A DNA stretch of 36,608 nucleotides. Source: Myxococcales bacterium. GTDB taxonomy: Bacteria > Myxococcota_A > Polyangia > Polyangiales > Polyangiaceae. Shown here in pieces: positions 26,166-36,018 of this stretch. Within the stretch, counting starts at the first letter, position 1, and every line of letters begins with the position of its first letter. The notes beneath the pieces are model-generated. The model ran no database searches. It was not told where the DNA came from and worked only from the letters and a program-made list of their open reading frames with translations. The stretch spans positions 1 to 36,608 of the forward strand of contig JAAFHV010000066.1 of NCBI GenBank assembly GCA_013297655.1. Reading direction: 5' to 3'. Both the position numbers and the translations under genes were made by a program.

Positions 26166-26304
26166 AGCGACTGAGGGCGGCCGTGCGCGTGCTCGAGGAG
26201 CCAGCGGCGGCGTCGCCACCTTTCAGGAGCGACCACGCGACGTCGACGATTGGGCTGCCGTCGTCGCGGGGCCGATGTGGCCGCGGAGGTGTACGTTCGT
26301 TTCG

Positions 26305-27954
26305 ATGAAGCGTCCCGCGGTCACCCTGCCAGTGACGAAGTTCTTCGACGGAACGCTGCTCGATCACCGCGGAGGGGCGCGGTTCGACGGCGTCTTCTTC
26401 CTCGATGATCGCCGCCTCCTCGTCCTCGGGCGATCGCGGACCGAGGTCGTCGCGCACCTCTACGAGTTGGACGACGACGGGTGGCGCTGGACGGGACGCC
26501 GGAACGCGCTCCCGCGCAAGACGGCCCCCGAGATCGGCTTCGGAGGCTCGTTCTTCGTCTGCGAGCCGATCGTCGCGCGCCTCGACGACGAGCGGTTCCT
26601 CTGCGTCTGGGTGGGCAGGGCGGAGGCGCAGTCGGCGGTGCTGGACGTTCGTGGCCGTACGCTCACCGACGTCGAGCTCGAGGGGGCGCGTGGCTTCGGG
26701 CAATGTCTCGAAGGTCGAACCTTCGAGGGCGAGGTGGGTGCCCTTCCCATCGTCTTCACCGATCGCACGGACGAGGTGGACCACGCGCCGACGCGGATCA
26801 CCGCGCCAGGCAAGCCTGCGATCGAGGTGGCGGTACACCTGAAGCCGGGCGTCCTCCGGTGGCGCGAGCACCTCGTGGGCTGCGCGGGGTCGACGGTTTA
26901 CGCGGTCGATATGGCGGACGGCCGCGTCGCGCGCACGTGGGACCTCGACCTCCCGAGCGTCTTCATTCGACGCGAAGGTGACCACCTGGTGGCTCGCTCG
27001 CCGCATGCGCAACACGAGCTCGTGCTCTCGTGGGATGCGCCCTCGCGCACGCGTGCGCCGACCGACCCCAACGCCGACGACGATCGGGTCGGCGACCTGC
27101 GTCACGGGCGCGATCCCTCGGGCAAAGGCTGGCAGGTGCGCAACGCGGAGGACGAGGTGCTGCTCGAGGTTCGATCCAAGAGCCGCGTGAGCCCCGCGTA
27201 TCTTCGGTGGGTCAGTCCGACGGGGCGGTGGTGGGCCTTCTGCAACACGCTCGACGACTTCGCGCTCCTCGAGCGCACCGACGCGGGCTTCCGGCTGGTC
27301 CCCCGGACCCACGAGCCCACACCCGAGCAGCGCGCGCGGCTGTCGTACCCCGGCTTCACGCTCGACGCGCGGGCTCCGCTGCGGACCAAGGCGCCGCTCG
27401 GTCTCGCGCTCTTCGAAGCGCTGGTGGAGGCAGGGCTGGCGGAGCCGTTCTCGCTTTCGGCCTTCGCGTTGGCGTTTCCCGATGCGCGTGTGCGTCCCGA
27501 ACGGATGGCGCTCGTGAAGGACGCGGTGCGGTGCGTTCACGTTCTCGCGGAGCAGTCGCCGCGGCTGGCGGAGCTCCGCACCGTGCACCACGAGGTCAAC
27601 GGCAACGCGCTCCACGCGGAGCTTTTTCCCCACTGGGACGGCGAAGACGAGACGTTCGACGTGACCGATCTTTCGGGGATCGAGGTCGCCTCCGGGCTCT
27701 GCGAGGTGTCGCTCGCGCTCGGCGGCTTCGAAGGCCGCGTGGTGGACGTGTCGCCCCTCGCGAAGCTGCCGCACCTGAGGCGGCTCGAGCTGCGTGGTCT
27801 CGTGAAGGGTCTCGAGGCGCTGTCGAGGCACGCGGGCGCGCTCGAGCTCATCGTGCTCGACGAGCCGCCGCCCCCGGCGGTCACGGCAGCGTTGCGAGCA
27901 TCGGGCGTCGAGGTCGTCGTGCGAAGCGCGTCACCGGGCGCCACGGGCCTTTAA
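26305..27954 (+). CDS. Large protein with N-terminal propeller-like and C-terminal leucine-rich regions
   Basis: The product is 549 residues from the ATG 26305 (an ATG at 26275 is also possible). No signal peptide is seen, so it is likely cytoplasmic. The first ~330 residues have repeated beta strands (ARFDGVFFLDDRRLLVLGRS, RFLCVWVGRAE, GSTVYAVDMADGRVARTWDL, YLRWVSPTGRWWAFCNTL), suggestive of a propeller. Residues ~370-440 are helical, and ~470-540 contain leucine-rich-repeat-like phrases (VVDVSPLAKLPHLRRLELRGL, ALELIVLDEPP). This layout resembles TIGR-type multi-repeat myxobacterial hypotheticals, from memory. Function unknown. It is followed 75 bp later by the second Uma2 copy on the same strand. 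Confidence 0.7.
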   Translation: MKRPAVTLPVTKFFDGTLLDHRGGARFDGVFFLDDRRLLVLGRSRTEVVAHLYELDDDGWRWTGRRNALPRKTAPEIGFGGSFFVCEPIVARLDDERFLCVWVGRAEAQSAVLDVRGRTLTDVELEGARGFGQCLEGRTFEGEVGALPIVFTDRTDEVDHAPTRITAPGKPAIEVAVHLKPGVLRWREHLVGCAGSTVYAVDMADGRVARTWDLDLPSVFIRREGDHLVARSPHAQHELVLSWDAPSRTRAPTDPNADDDRVGDLRHGRDPSGKGWQVRNAEDEVLLEVRSKSRVSPAYLRWVSPTGRWWAFCNTLDDFALLERTDAGFRLVPRTHEPTPEQRARLSYPGFTLDARAPLRTKAPLGLALFEALVEAGLAEPFSLSAFALAFPDARVRPERMALVKDAVRCVHVLAEQSPRLAELRTVHHEVNGNALHAELFPHWDGEDETFDVTDLSGIEVASGLCEVSLALGGFEGRVVDVSPLAKLPHLRRLELRGLVKGLEALSRHAGALELIVLDEPPPPAVTAALRASGVEVVVRSASPGATGL

Positions 27955-28029: not shown

Positions 28030-28704
28030 ATGAGCCATTTGCCGCAGCGCCCCCACTCGACCGCGCGCCCGGACCTCCGGTACACGCGTGCGCCGGTGCC
28101 GCTCCATTTTCCGGAAGAGGCCGAGATACCGGAAGGCAAGACGCACCTGACGCTGCGTACGTTCTTGTATCAACTGCTGAAGTTCGCGTTGGGCCCCGCG
28201 CATAGCGTGGGGTCCGAGCAGTTCGTCTACTTCAATGCGGCCGACCCGAAGAAGTGCCTGGCGCCTGATGCGTTCGTGAAGTTGAATGTTCCGGATACGC
28301 AATTTGGCACTTGGAAGACCTGGGAGCGCGGCGGTCCGCCGGACCTCGCGGTCGAGATCGTGAGCCCGAACGAAGACGCCGAGAAGGACTGGAGCGACAA
28401 GCTCGCCCGGTACTTCGAGTGCGGAGTCGTGGAGCTGGTCCGTTTCGACTCTGCTGCGCCCGAGGGCGAGCGCCTTCGCGTGTGGGACCGAATCGACGAC
28501 GACTTGGTCGAGCGGGTGGTGACCTCGGACCGAACGACCTGCTTGACGCTGAACCTGGGCTGGGTGGTCGCGCCCGTCGCAGAAGAGCCGGTAGGGCTTC
28601 GCCTCGAGCGCGCCAACGGCGAGCTGGTGAAGACAGCCGGAGAGGCTGCCGAGGCGCGCGTTCGAGAGCTCGAGGAAGAAGTGCGCCGCTTGCGGGGTGG
28701 GTGA
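28030..28704 (+). CDS. Uma2 family protein (PD-(D/E)XK nuclease fold), intact copy 2
   Basis: The product has 224 residues from the ATG 28030, with an intact N-terminus (MSHLPQRPHSTARPDLRYTR). The core is PDLAVEIVSPNED with the catalytic Asp and Glu, DKLARYFECGV with the Lys, and VELVRFDS. The C-terminus is a coiled coil (RVRELEEEVRRLRGG). It is about 88% similar to copy 1 at 21454, and similarity extends ~60 bp upstream of both starts (cgagcgagagccgcagtg here), so the promoter was copied too. Uma2/DUF820 proteins are predicted endonucleases of unclear function, common and often multicopy in cyanobacteria and myxobacteria. Confidence 0.85.
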   Translation: MSHLPQRPHSTARPDLRYTRAPVPLHFPEEAEIPEGKTHLTLRTFLYQLLKFALGPAHSVGSEQFVYFNAADPKKCLAPDAFVKLNVPDTQFGTWKTWERGGPPDLAVEIVSPNEDAEKDWSDKLARYFECGVVELVRFDSAAPEGERLRVWDRIDDDLVERVVTSDRTTCLTLNLGWVVAPVAEEPVGLRLERANGELVKTAGEAAEARVRELEEEVRRLRGG

Positions 28705-31006: not shown

Positions 31007-32986
31007 ATGGAACCGCTCACGCCGAGGGCTGCCGCGGATGTCGTGCTCGAGGGACTCGATGCGCAGAAGCGTCGGTTCTCGATCGTAGGCCGCCAGGGTT
31101 CTGGCAAGTCGTCTACGTTGGACGCGATCGGCGCGGGCCTTCGCGACCGGGACACCTACTTCGTCCGCGTCGGCCTCTCTCACGACCAGGACGCGCCGTT
31201 CGCGGCTCTCGTCGACCTGGCATCCCAGCTGTCGCGTTCCTCGTTCGAGCTCCTCGACCTGGTGTGCAATTCGAGGGTGAGCTGGCGCGACAAGCTGACG
31301 GCCGTGACGAACGCGCTCGTGGCTGCCGCGCCTGTCGTTCTGTTCGACGAGCCTCGTTCGCCCGGGACCTCCCTCGGGCGCGGCGTGTTCGCCAGTTGTG
31401 CACACGAGCTGAGCCACGCCATCCTCTCGGCAGAGAAGCTCCAGGTGGTCGCTGGAGAGCAGACACATGGCACCTTCGTTCCTTCGCACACGGTCGTGTC
31501 CGTGCGGCCTACGTCGCTCCCCCGCCAGGTGCTGGAGCGCAACTGGTCGAACAGCGATCTGGCGGCCGCAGCAGCCGACCTTTTGAAGCAGGATGTCGAG
31601 GGGCTCGAGCGCTACTCGCCGCTCGAGCTGCGCCTCGCCGTCGCGTCCGTCGCCCGCGGGACGAGCGCGCGTGACCTCGTGAAGAAGCGGTGGAGCCCGC
31701 CGGAGCTCGTTCGAACAGCGATTGACACGGACGCGCTTCGCACGGCCGTAGCCGAGCTGGCGCTCTACCGCATGGGAGCGCCGCTCGAGGTCGTGCAGGA
31801 GCAGTACGCCAAGGATGGGCTCTTCGCCTTTCTCAGCGATGTTGTCTTCATCGAATCGCCGGCCGGTGCGATCGTGCACGACGTCATCGCCTACGAGGCG
31901 CGCGACCACCGCTGGCTCCCTGAGCCTGGCTCCGAACGAGCGCACGCGAAAATTGCCGCCTGGCACAAAGAGCAGTTCGAGTCCGCGCGAAATGTATCGG
32001 ACGTCGTCAAGGCCACGCGACACGAGATGGAGGTGATTCACCACCTCACCGAGTCTCGCGACGCCACGGCGGTTCTCTCGGCCTCCGTGTTCTTCTCCGA
32101 GCAGTACGATTTGCTCGGCAAGGAGCTCAGCATCGCCAAACGGTACGACGACGCCGTGACGGCATACGAGCGGGCGCTCGAGCACGACTCGAACGACGCG
32201 TACGCACACCACTATCTCGCCTACAACCTCGACGCGCAGGGGAAGCAGCCGAGCCGGGTGAAGACCGCCTACGAAAAGGCTCGCGAGCTTCGTCCCGAGC
32301 GCGCGCGCTACCATGGCCGCTACGCGACTTTCCTCGTCACGGTCGGTCGCATGGGCGAGGCCCAGGACGCGTGGGCACAAGCGCTGAGCCAGCTCGCGTA
32401 CGACGATGGGCTCGACCCGGCCCTCCTCGTGCAGCAAATCTACGCGCCGCTCGCAGCCTTGTTGCTGCACCGCGGGGAGCTCGATTTTGCCGAGCAAGTG
32501 CTCTGCGCGTTTCCCCGTTTCTTTCGCGAGAAGGCGGCGTATCGCGCGCTAGAGCTCCGGCTCGAGCTCCTGCGCGAGGTCGAGGACGAGACAAATGTGT
32601 TTCCTCCTGCTCTCGCGCGAGAGCTGCGCTGGAAGCAGCCCGCGCTCTTCGACAAGCTCGATTCGCGCAAGATCGTTCGGTACCGGCCTGGCCGGATCTG
32701 CAGCGTGACGGAGCGCGGCGTCCGTGTGCTCATGGCGGAGCGCATCGGAGGCGACCCGCCGGACTACGCGTACGTCGACTTTACGGCTGCAGAGCTCGTA
32801 GCGCTCAAGGCCGAGAGGCGAAGCGGCTTTCCGCTCGCCGTAGGAACCTTCGTCGAGCACGTCGTGCTGGACGATGGCAGCGCGCTTCTCTTGGCCTGGC
32901 AGCCGCAAGCGAACGCGCTCCCGCCCCTCGATCTCGGCTTCGCGCCCGACCGCTATATCCGTGCCGCTACCGCAGCTCAGGGCTGA
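31007..32986 (+). CDS. STAND-like P-loop NTPase with TPR-like repeats
   Basis: The product has 659 residues from the ATG at 31007. Walker A GRQGSGKS is at 28-35 and a Walker B-like VVLFDEP at 110-116. Residues ~180-290 look like the helical and winged-helix part that follows STAND/AAA modules (WSPPELVRTAID, RMGAPLEVVQEQYAKDGLFA). Residues ~365-520 contain TPR-like pairs (AKRYDDAVTAYERALEHDSN, GKQPSRVKTAYEKARELRPE, RGELDFAEQVLCAFP), a common sensor arrangement. The last ~100 residues are beta-rich, possibly an OB-like fold (ICSVTERGVRVLMAERIG). The C-terminus overlaps the next gene by 26 nt. The combination suggests a switch NTPase working with the metallo-beta-lactamase-fold protein. Confidence 0.75.
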   Translation: MEPLTPRAAADVVLEGLDAQKRRFSIVGRQGSGKSSTLDAIGAGLRDRDTYFVRVGLSHDQDAPFAALVDLASQLSRSSFELLDLVCNSRVSWRDKLTAVTNALVAAAPVVLFDEPRSPGTSLGRGVFASCAHELSHAILSAEKLQVVAGEQTHGTFVPSHTVVSVRPTSLPRQVLERNWSNSDLAAAAADLLKQDVEGLERYSPLELRLAVASVARGTSARDLVKKRWSPPELVRTAIDTDALRTAVAELALYRMGAPLEVVQEQYAKDGLFAFLSDVVFIESPAGAIVHDVIAYEARDHRWLPEPGSERAHAKIAAWHKEQFESARNVSDVVKATRHEMEVIHHLTESRDATAVLSASVFFSEQYDLLGKELSIAKRYDDAVTAYERALEHDSNDAYAHHYLAYNLDAQGKQPSRVKTAYEKARELRPERARYHGRYATFLVTVGRMGEAQDAWAQALSQLAYDDGLDPALLVQQIYAPLAALLLHRGELDFAEQVLCAFPRFFREKAAYRALELRLELLREVEDETNVFPPALARELRWKQPALFDKLDSRKIVRYRPGRICSVTERGVRVLMAERIGGDPPDYAYVDFTAAELVALKAERRSGFPLAVGTFVEHVVLDDGSALLLAWQPQANALPPLDLGFAPDRYIRAATAAQG

Positions 32987-33977
32987 CGCGCTGACGGTGT
33001 TCGTGCTCGGGCCGGGCACGGGCGAGTCGGTCGTAGTGCACGCGCCAGACGGCGCGTGGATGGTGGTCGATAGCTGCCGCTCGAAGCGAAATGGCATAGC
33101 GCTGAAGCTTCTCAATCACTACGAAGCGCGCCCGAGCTTGCTCGCGCTCACCCACCCGCACCTCGATCACGCTTCGGGCTTCGGGGAGCTGGTGAACACG
33201 TACACGAGGGATAGTGACAGCACCTGGCCGAAGCTCGGTGTCGTGCCCGCGCCCGATACCAAGAAGGCAGACGGTTCGTGGGACTTGGAGCCCGCGCTCA
33301 AGAACGGCCAGGTCGAGCAAGCGATTGCATCGGTGCTCACCCGCTGGGAGCAACGGCCGGTGTCACGGTGGGACATGAAGCAGGGCGACAGCGAGGCGCT
33401 CGGCTCCGCCACCGTCTGCGTCATCTCGCCTAGCCCTGCCGAGCGCGCCGCCGCCTTCAAGGCGTGGAACACCGATGGCAACTACGACTTCAACCGCGCG
33501 TCTTCGGCGTTCATCGTGGAGTGGAGCGGGCGCAGCGTGCTCCTCGGCTCCGACTTGGTCGAGCACCCGGGCAAAGGATGGACGGACGCGACGACCGCAT
33601 ACGCGCGAGCGGCGTCCCACGACGTGTACAAGCTCGCGCACCACGGCTCCGAGGGAGCGAGAGGTCCGCAGCTCGGAGCAGCCAAGGGCGCCTCGCGGGT
33701 CTGGATCGCGACCCCGTTCGCGCGCGAGGGCTTGCCAACGGCCGACGGGCTCGTGCCGCACCTCGCGATTGAGCCGGAAGTGCACCTGACTGGCCTACCC
33801 GTGCCTTACGCGCAGCAGAGCAACGGACACCGCGCGACGCCCGTCGGGGGCCTCGGGGGGCTTGGCGCAACGCCCCCTCCGTCAGGGTTCCCGGATTGCT
33901 TCGTGTGCGTGGTGATTCCGGCGACCGGGCCGAGCCAGGTCATCTTCGGTTCCGGCGCGGTTACGGTTACGCCCTGA
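32961..33977 (+). CDS. MBL-fold metallohydrolase (ComEC/Rec2-like type)
   Basis: The product has 338 residues from the GTG at 32961; an earlier frame is open but lacks protein-like sequence. The N-terminus LTVFVLGPGTGESVVVHAPD with WMVVDSC is the pattern of stand-alone ComEC-like MBL proteins. The metal motif is HPHLDH at 65-70 (HxHxDH), with Asp198 (LLGSDLVEHP) and HHGSEG at 227-232. These proteins hydrolyse phosphodiesters or related bonds, often on nucleic acids. It overlaps the NTPase gene by 26 nt, so the two are co-translated and probably act together. The C-terminal ~50 residues include a Gly/Pro-rich stretch. Substrate unknown. Confidence 0.85.
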   Translation: MPLPQLRADALTVFVLGPGTGESVVVHAPDGAWMVVDSCRSKRNGIALKLLNHYEARPSLLALTHPHLDHASGFGELVNTYTRDSDSTWPKLGVVPAPDTKKADGSWDLEPALKNGQVEQAIASVLTRWEQRPVSRWDMKQGDSEALGSATVCVISPSPAERAAAFKAWNTDGNYDFNRASSAFIVEWSGRSVLLGSDLVEHPGKGWTDATTAYARAASHDVYKLAHHGSEGARGPQLGAAKGASRVWIATPFAREGLPTADGLVPHLAIEPEVHLTGLPVPYAQQSNGHRATPVGGLGGLGATPPPSGFPDCFVCVVIPATGPSQVIFGSGAVTVTP

Positions 33978-35340: not shown

Positions 35341-35941
35341 AAACCGAAGTCCGCAGCTTCTGATGAATCGCGTGAATACTCGCGAAGCTGGGAATTCGCG
35401 CAGGCCCCGACACTTGGTCGAGGGCGATGCGCATCTGAGCGGCGCAGCGGCGCGGGTCCATCATGCCGATTCCGGTGCCGAGCCCGGGAACGAGGAGCGA
35501 CGCGATTCGATGCGGGTGCGAGCCTGCCTGGTTGTGCCGAACGACGGCGAGGAGGGCAGCGCGGAAGGCGACGTATGCGTTCACGGTGGAGGCGACGCTC
35601 TCCGGCACGCGCATGGTGGGCGCGACGACGAGGAAGGGCCAACGCTCGCTCGTGGTCTCTACGACTTCGGCCGCGCCGACGTGGAGCTCACCGTGGTGCC
35701 TCTCGAGGATGACGCGTCGAACGGCGCCCTCGATAGTGCCGCCGAGCGCGTCGCGAATCGCGGCGTCGAGCCCGCCGTCCATGTTACCGAAGCTGTTGGC
35801 GGGGCTCACCATCGCGTCCGCCTCGTGAGCGAAGAAGTCGCCTTCGATGGCAGTCACGTTTTCGTGATTCGCGAACACCTCCGACCACGCGCGGACGAGA
35901 CTGGGCGTGCGGTCGACGAGGAGGATTTTCGCGGGGAGCAT
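35339..35941 (-). CDS. Macro-domain protein (ADP-ribose binding)
   Basis: The product has 200 residues from the ATG 35941-35939, chosen because MLPAKILLVD matches a typical domain start; the frame is open to 36004. Macro-domain motifs: TAIEGDFF, DAMVSPANSFGNMDGGLDAAI at 42-62 (Asn and the MDGG loop), and VPGLGTGIGMM at 151-161, the phosphate-binding loop. Macro domains bind or hydrolyse ADP-ribose and related nucleotides. The gene may take part in ADP-ribosylation reversal or NAD-derived signalling; the actual activity is not determined. It ends at the inverted repeat and terminator below 35340. The lipoprotein at 36019 is divergent. Confidence 0.85.
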   Translation of the reverse strand: MLPAKILLVDRTPSLVRAWSEVFANHENVTAIEGDFFAHEADAMVSPANSFGNMDGGLDAAIRDALGGTIEGAVRRVILERHHGELHVGAAEVVETTSERWPFLVVAPTMRVPESVASTVNAYVAFRAALLAVVRHNQAGSHPHRIASLLVPGLGTGIGMMDPRRCAAQMRIALDQVSGPARIPSFASIHAIHQKLRTSV

Positions 35942-36018
35942 GAGGCGTGGGGGTGTAGCACGCGGAGCTCCGGCTCGCGCGGCACCGGCATTTGACGTCG
36001 ACATCCGATCGCGCCACC

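Follow-up and report, generated by a model that had tools for sequence, protein, structure and literature searches.

A P-loop NTPase and metallo-beta-lactamase gene pair from Polyangiaceae, a candidate two-gene defence module also found inside class-1 DISARM operons

The stretch of DNA analysed here (the window) comprises 36,608 nt of contig JAAFHV010000066.1 from a Myxococcales bacterium of the family Polyangiaceae (assembly GCA_013297655.1). Two open reading frames (ORFs) on its forward strand encode a P-loop NTPase with TPR-type repeats and a ComEC-like protein of the metallo-beta-lactamase (MBL) fold. The first ORF begins with ATG and overlaps the second by 26 nt, as described in the initial annotation. 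The same pair is found at 18 loci, three of which lie inside class-1 DISARM operons, and it is interpreted below as a putative defence module. The features of the locus are listed in Table 1. Codon-position G+C contrast is strong in both ORFs (0.34 for the NTPase and 0.28 for the MBL gene), and since both also have conserved relatives, a chance frame is ruled out for either of them. The NTPase has one match in its own genome.

Table 1 Features of the gene pair and of its surroundings in the window. Residue numbers refer to the respective protein (aa, amino acids)
Feature	Position	Strand	Basis or remark
NTPase gene, 659 aa: P-loop domain, helical middle, TPR-type repeats, C-terminal beta-barrel	31007..32986	+	ORF, profile matches, structure model
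ORF overlap, 26 nt; putative translational coupling	32961..32986	+	ORF ends
ComEC-type MBL-fold gene, 338 aa, GTG start, predicted nuclease effector	32961..33977	+	profile and fold matches
Walker A / P-loop GRQGSGKS, residues 28-35	31088..31111	+	sequence; alignment of 21 relatives
Walker B-like VVLFDEP, residues 110-116; acid present throughout the window's clade, absent from the other	31334..31354	+	alignment
TPR-type helical repeats, residues about 361-527	32087..32587	+	profile matches, model, structure comparison
C-terminal small beta-barrel, residues about 556-630	32672..32896	+	model (confidence 54-80); region in all 18 MBL-paired NTPases of the family proper
HPHLDH metal-binding motif, residues 65-70	33153..33170	+	HPHxDH in 15/15 aligned
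Asp198 (GSDL), presumed metal ligand	33552..33554	+	kept in 15/15 aligned
His227-His228 (AHHGS)	33639..33644	+	HH kept in 15/15 aligned
Low-confidence segment, residues 101-120; candidate gating loop	33261..33320	+	model; region longer than in ComEC
Low-confidence segment, residues 281-310; candidate second gating loop	33801..33890	+	model
Uma2-family nuclease-like gene	28030-28701	+	upstream of the pair; weak PADLOC PDC-S03
DUF6892 protein	26275-27951	+	upstream of the pair
Macro-domain protein	35342-36004	-	Pfam Macro 8.7e-10; near the pair

The P-loop strand of the NTPase begins at residue 22. In the structure model, a helical-repeat array extends up to residue 527 and is followed by a five-stranded C-terminal barrel (mean predicted local distance difference test score 72.6, with 4 sequences in the alignment). 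This small barrel goes beyond what had been described for the protein, which was initially annotated as a STAND-like NTPase with TPR-type repeats. The P-loop and the helical repeats are indeed present; the family assignment is less firm, with TPR matches that remain under the curated cut-offs (Pfam TPR_1, 4e-5, residues 370-397; NCBIfam TIGR02521, 2.9e-10, residues 379-467). The match to Pfam AAA_16 (8.6e-4) is likewise under the cut-off. The top solved-structure match of the model in Foldseek is 6mfv, a STAND protein with a TPR sensor (E 1.7e-5, template modelling (TM) score 0.25, 13% identity, root-mean-square deviation (rmsd) 18). The rows of the VIA alignment of the model are mostly TPR proteins covering residues 305-535, and this alignment bears on the TPR part, the other parts being barely covered.

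For the downstream protein, the assignment to a ComEC-like MBL fold was confirmed. Its profile matches the MBL structures of ComEC (9ic4, 1.9e-12; 30bt, 7.7e-11), Pfam Lactamase_B is matched over the cut-off (2.4e-5), and the model aligns with 9ic4 over 251 residues (Z 24.6, rmsd 2.8). The ligand set of ComEC-type MBLs (HxHxDH, Asp, HHGS) is complete and never varies in the 15 aligned proteins. About 50 more residues lie between the motifs than in 9ic4; these and the two low-confidence segments of the model could serve as gates.

Lack of conserved co-occurrence in other genomes, named in the initial annotation as grounds for refutation, was not observed. A barrel-bearing NTPase gene followed directly by an MBL start is found at 18 loci in 17 genomes (window included), mostly myxobacterial, with the MBL gene downstream in 18/18. 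The MBL starts, which are plausible starts chosen by the analyst, overlap the NTPase ORF by 1-28 nt at 17 loci and follow a 7-nt gap at one. Three of these loci were counted as pairs and left out of the MBL alignment, the Mantel test and the MBL tree, namely L041 (the MBL continues for ~40 residues, then breaks), L042 (contig end, NTPase split over two frames) and L166 (MBL split over two frames). Not counted as pairs were L172 (contig edge) as well as L174 and L175 (fragments). In the 15 pairs compared, the pairwise distances of NTPase and MBL are closely correlated (Mantel, r 0.95, p 0.0001) and the two trees agree in outline. At L174 (5809-6974, genome G085), NTPase and MBL fragments are found in overlapping frames with a stop within the NTPase match, probably a decayed pair.

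The distribution of the NTPase family is patchy. At E 1e-15, a threshold that also takes in fragments and barrel-less forms, profile matches are found in 16 of 183 genomes from the order, 18 of 317 from the class and 12 of 377 from the phylum sample. In an MBL scan of 84,980 species genomes, at least three of the best 80 of 141 loci hold the pair (Myxococcus qinghaiensis, Sorangium cellulosum So ce26 and a single metagenome-assembled genome labelled UBP9), and further pairs may exist beyond these 80. Sorangium cellulosum So ce26 is identical to genome G477 of the present collection, as judged by shared sequence, and belongs to the same family as the window's genome (Polyangiaceae, Myxococcota according to NCBI). 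Plasmids and phages yielded no relatives of either protein (tblastn, E 1e-5). In viral contigs no NTPase relative was found, and none of the 11 weak MBL matches has an NTPase in the stretch examined.

At three of the 18 loci the pair is part of a class-1 DISARM operon, where it separates drmMI from drmA. In genome G253, DrmD, DrmMI, NTPase, MBL, DrmA, DrmB and DrmC are encoded in this order on one strand (PADLOC, each E 8e-77 or better). According to tblastn, order and strand are the same in G478, where an ORF judged transposase-like by eye separates DrmMI from the pair, and the order recurs in G455, where the pair is inverted. By a rough chance expectation, 0.0013 pairs would fall into such slots, compared with the three observed. 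A DrmA match is present in 55 of 356 genomes. No Drm genes were found at the other 15 loci, window included, in the fetched stretches where these were searched. One of the DISARM-nested pairs falls into the NTPase clade of the window and two into the other clade (clade split 100/100). The MBL tree needs three changes of context on well-supported branches, and the NTPase tree forces one (tested against labelled rows); in both trees, the solo pair L040 and the DISARM pair L164 group as sisters at 100/100. The placement of solo and DISARM copies thus indicates that the module has moved between the two settings.

In class-1 DISARM operons of the phylum, the interval between drmMI and drmA proved variable. 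Of 42 DISARM loci examined (L210-L249, L045 and L164), 14 without both drmMI and drmA were left unused. The interval exceeds 1.5 kb in 20/28 operons, as compared with 1/26 for drmD-drmMI and 0/27 for drmA-drmB, and in 18/26 when the two loci chosen for holding the pair are removed; the drmD-drmMI value of L223, with a helicase in the slot, looks artefactual. Among the slot proteins picked for scanning, 12 of 17 have a family match in one of two libraries. Cargo over the cut-off includes GmrSD, AAA_21/AAA_15 ATPases, a GHKL ATPase, PLD and TIGR04255, and cargo under the cut-off includes Ser/Thr kinase, dGTPase-like, Fic-like and CbiR-like proteins. In other slots the ORFs are transposase-like or lipoprotein-like (named by eye). 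By its gene content, the drmMI-drmA interval seems to be a slot in which defence cargo is abundant, the pair included. A paper on the structure of DISARM speaks of 'additional auxiliary genes' (PMC9142583). Among the results listed for searches of open-licence literature, there was no account of the pair or of a drmMI-drmA cargo slot; the slot may be in the original DISARM paper.

The slot of L235 (9090-12341, minus strand) contains a TIGR04255 protein beside a small protein that resembles, by eye, the second gene of the distant-MBL operons described below. An aspartic-protease-like protein (by eye) takes the place of the MBL there.

The nucleotide-binding motifs are less well conserved than the MBL ligands. 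In the 18 MBL-paired NTPases, the Walker-A lysine is kept in 12, replaced by arginine in five and lost in one, and the Walker-B acid is kept in nine. Both residues are intact in the window NTPase and in all nine members of its clade, whereas the acid is absent from all nine MBL-paired NTPases of the second clade. Since the MBL ligands are kept in 15/15 proteins while these two residues are not, the MBL appears to be the indispensable catalyst. Judging from its motifs, the NTPase part of the second clade is probably a scaffold or a nucleotide-bound clamp.

An MBL partner accompanies 18/18 barrel-bearing NTPases versus 1/5 barrel-less relatives (p 0.0006), an association that is partly biased, the seeds of the NTPase profile all having been picked for barrel and MBL. 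At the barrel-less loci L047, L170 and L171 there is no MBL within the stretch examined, L047 ending in a short contig without a clear partner. Two more distant TPR relatives have neither a recognisable P-loop nor a barrel; the one at L173 (1-2664, minus strand, genome G575) overlaps an MBL gene, and the similar L048 protein has no MBL neighbour.

At L170 (10260-10763) and L171 (8237-8722), the next gene overlaps and encodes a different protein, 162-168 aa long and with no family match, so that effector or adaptor seems to have been exchanged there. A further arrangement is seen at L051, L053, L054, L055, L060, L061 and L069, where a distant MBL relative is the last gene of a three-gene operon, after genes for proteins of 214-244 aa and 166-205 aa, the latter often starting with W-x-x-G-x-V; at L057, the second gene and the MBL gene are present. 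The small proteins from L053, L060, L069 and L057 gave no family match over the cut-off. The NTPase barrel was compared with the small protein that precedes related MBL genes (Scalindua, Brocadiaceae, Desulfobacula and others), and the match was rejected at an HHalign probability of 3-4% over 21-27 columns. Its score of 21.0 is higher than that of all 200 column-shuffled decoys (maximum 15.1), yet it spans little over one strand. Homology between the barrel and this small protein is treated as a lead.

Of the solo pairs, L009 (G024) adjoins a DruE-like helicase split over two frames and L043 (G115) an Mrr/type-IV-like nuclease. In total, 105 neighbouring ORFs were collected, of which 10 were scanned singly and 78 as a batch, nine of the latter being rescanned singly. 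The 25 of 74 matching families listed for the 78 neighbours are mostly kinases and DrmMI. Matches to the PADLOC models PD-T4-6, mad6 and MkoA were read as generic Ser/Thr kinases and not counted as defence. Further defence genes may thus lie beside the solo pairs, the singly rescanned proteins apart. In the window, two further neighbours besides those in Table 1 have no family match.

The conserved pairing, the overlap, the co-divergence, the invariant MBL ligands, the barrel-MBL association and the DISARM location were computed directly. The pair is here read, with a probability of roughly 0.6, as a two-gene, protease-free antiviral (or anti-mobile-element) module, in which a STAND-like switch restrains and releases a ComEC-type MBL nuclease, alone or as DISARM cargo. 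Decisive support for a role in defence comes from the DISARM context. The overlapping ORFs may be translated together, so that the nuclease would form a complex with its partner as it is made. At rest, the MBL would be kept inactive by contact with the barrel/TPR part. Once the TPR part recognises a signal of infection, the NTPase would change or oligomerise and so release the MBL active site for DNA degradation. Where the pair is nested in DISARM, it would be co-transcribed and thus supplied whenever DISARM is made. In this scheme, the activity of the MBL as a nuclease, its inhibition by the barrel, sensing of infection and protection against phages are predicted functions. Neither protein has a peptidase domain, and the trypsin-type pattern G[DN]S[GA]G[PG] is absent from all six frames of 21 loci in a crude motif scan, which would miss other protease types. 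Restraint by the STAND-like partner is suggested by this two-gene operon without peptidase domain or trypsin-type motif.

A wider proposal is put forward tentatively and with less than even confidence. The pair could belong to a family of stand-alone immune modules not described so far, whose STAND-like P-loop/TPR/barrel protein controls a ComEC-type MBL nuclease directly, without proteolysis. The barrel could be a plug-in adaptor, exchangeable together with the downstream gene, and class-1 DISARM could have a dedicated drmMI-drmA slot that recruits this and other effector modules. If true, DISARM would be a platform in which sensing could be coupled to exchangeable effectors. Bacterial immune systems use MBL nucleases repeatedly, and those tested in PMC12799240 are switched on by a protease; a conserved pair without one would mean that the same kind of weapon can also be controlled in another way. 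That the pair occupies one position in three DISARM operons suggests that this well-known system has a cargo slot.

Several observations weigh against the two-gene defence module. Matches of the window proteins to defence models are weak (NTPase: SspC 9e-4; MBL: LmuA 2e-5, RTasMBL 2e-3, Avs1a 0.046). The window copy lies outside any recognised defence island, and the sole PADLOC match among five neighbours scanned is the weak one of the Uma2 gene (PDC-S03, 2.7e-5). Nor is there, at E 1e-30, a match in the window's genome to DrmA, which together with DrmB forms the DISARM core. Most solo pairs have no clear defence neighbour among the 25 of 74 matching families listed. Concerning the mechanism, an ATP-hydrolysis switch was rejected for the second clade and cannot be general, because nine partners have no Walker-B acid; the barrel is not strictly required either, because L173 has an MBL beside a barrel-less TPR protein. 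L044 is the one pair of the 15 whose NTPase and MBL are placed across the main split from each other, on supported branches, which could reflect a single exchange of partners or an error in a tree. Finally, the defence MBLs of PMC12799240 are unlocked by a protease, and none is visible in the pair by motif scan.

Other functions of the pair were weighed against the same evidence. MBL folds are catalytically promiscuous, and the Foldseek list of the MBL model also contains a phosphorylcholine esterase and Apyc1. The pair could thus be a defence module whose MBL hydrolyses a signal or small molecule, like Apyc1 or a phosphodiesterase MBL, with the NTPase-TPR protein as target or transducer. This is considered unlikely, given that the ComEC MBL is the best match in sequence and, by a margin, in fold (Z 24.6 versus 20.5 for the next-best match) and that the defence MBLs tested in PMC12799240 are DNases. 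A similarly low probability is assigned to a toxin-antitoxin-like or addiction pair on mobile cargo, where the NTPase would neutralise a toxic MBL without sensing infection. The overlapping two-gene operon would suit such a pair, as would MBL ligands that are always intact beside a partner whose Walker B is missing in half of the cases, the patchy distribution, and slots that also hold transposase-like and non-defence-like ORFs (named by eye). Usual antitoxins, in contrast, are far smaller than a 659-aa P-loop-TPR-barrel partner. In addition, the pair lies in operon orientation between DISARM genes in two of the three genomes, which argues for co-expression with defence. An addiction pair and the favoured defence module differ mainly in the trigger.

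Two further explanations can largely be set aside. ComEC is the closest solved relative of the MBL, which speaks for a housekeeping pair for DNA uptake or DNA processing. Such an assignment, which would have spoken against a defence role, did not emerge: the membrane-embedded Competence domain that is fused to the MBL in ComEC/Rec2 was not found (Pfam), there is no strongly hydrophobic segment (maximum 19-residue hydropathy 1.49), the pair occurs in about 3 to 9% of relatives, and it is DISARM-nested in three genomes. DNA uptake was therefore rejected, and a housekeeping role is extremely improbable. The initial annotation had offered a reduced AVAST type I system or a different system, of which the latter fits better. 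In AVAST type I, the MBL Avs1a is combined with a protease and a STAND NTPase, and the present pair shares with it a STAND-like NTPase with a repeat sensor and a ComEC-like MBL. It differs in having two genes, in the downstream position of the MBL, in a C-terminal beta-barrel of the NTPase and in the lack of a detectable protease (peptidase domains; trypsin-type motif at 21 loci). The MBL was not assigned to the Avs1a family (PADLOC E 0.046 over 70 residues; NCBIfam Avs1a, 12.3 bits against a cut-off of 420), and according to PMC12799240 the AVAST MBL gene lies upstream of the protease-fusion gene. With family, protease component and gene order all at variance, AVAST membership was rejected, and a reduced form of this system is very unlikely.

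Among known systems, class-1 DISARM (drmD-drmMI-drmA-drmB-drmC) is related to the pair by location, with three pairs embedded between drmMI and drmA and no Drm genes found at the other 15 loci in the stretches where these were searched. The STAND protein 6mfv is the best solved fold match of the NTPase model (TM 0.25), and we know of no MBL partner for it. The SAMD9 family is described as combining AlbA, Sir2-like, STAND-like P-loop NTPase, TPR and OB-fold domains (PMC5445408). Its order of P-loop, TPR and small C-terminal barrel recurs in the NTPase, which also has a weak Foldseek match to 9zjr (E 1.1e-3); this is a likeness and not an established homology. The NTPase differs from this family in showing no match to an AlbA or Sir2-like domain up to E 1 and in that the effector is encoded by a separate MBL gene.

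Functional parallels are offered by Canu (CanABC, caspase-nuclease) and the HamMAB form of Hachiman, which also use a ComEC-like MBL as a dedicated effector under the control of a neighbouring gene (PMC12799240). In Canu, the nuclease gene is likewise located downstream of its regulator, a caspase gene. The same paper describes the broadly similar MBLs of Hachiman, AVAST and Canu as pro-nucleases that a protease unlocks. The protease-gated enzymes HamM, Avs1a and CanC carry two disordered insertions with protease sites over the active site. The nuclease of Canu and Hachiman is unlocked by a caspase or trypsin, whereas the sole partner of the MBL described here is a P-loop/TPR/barrel protein.

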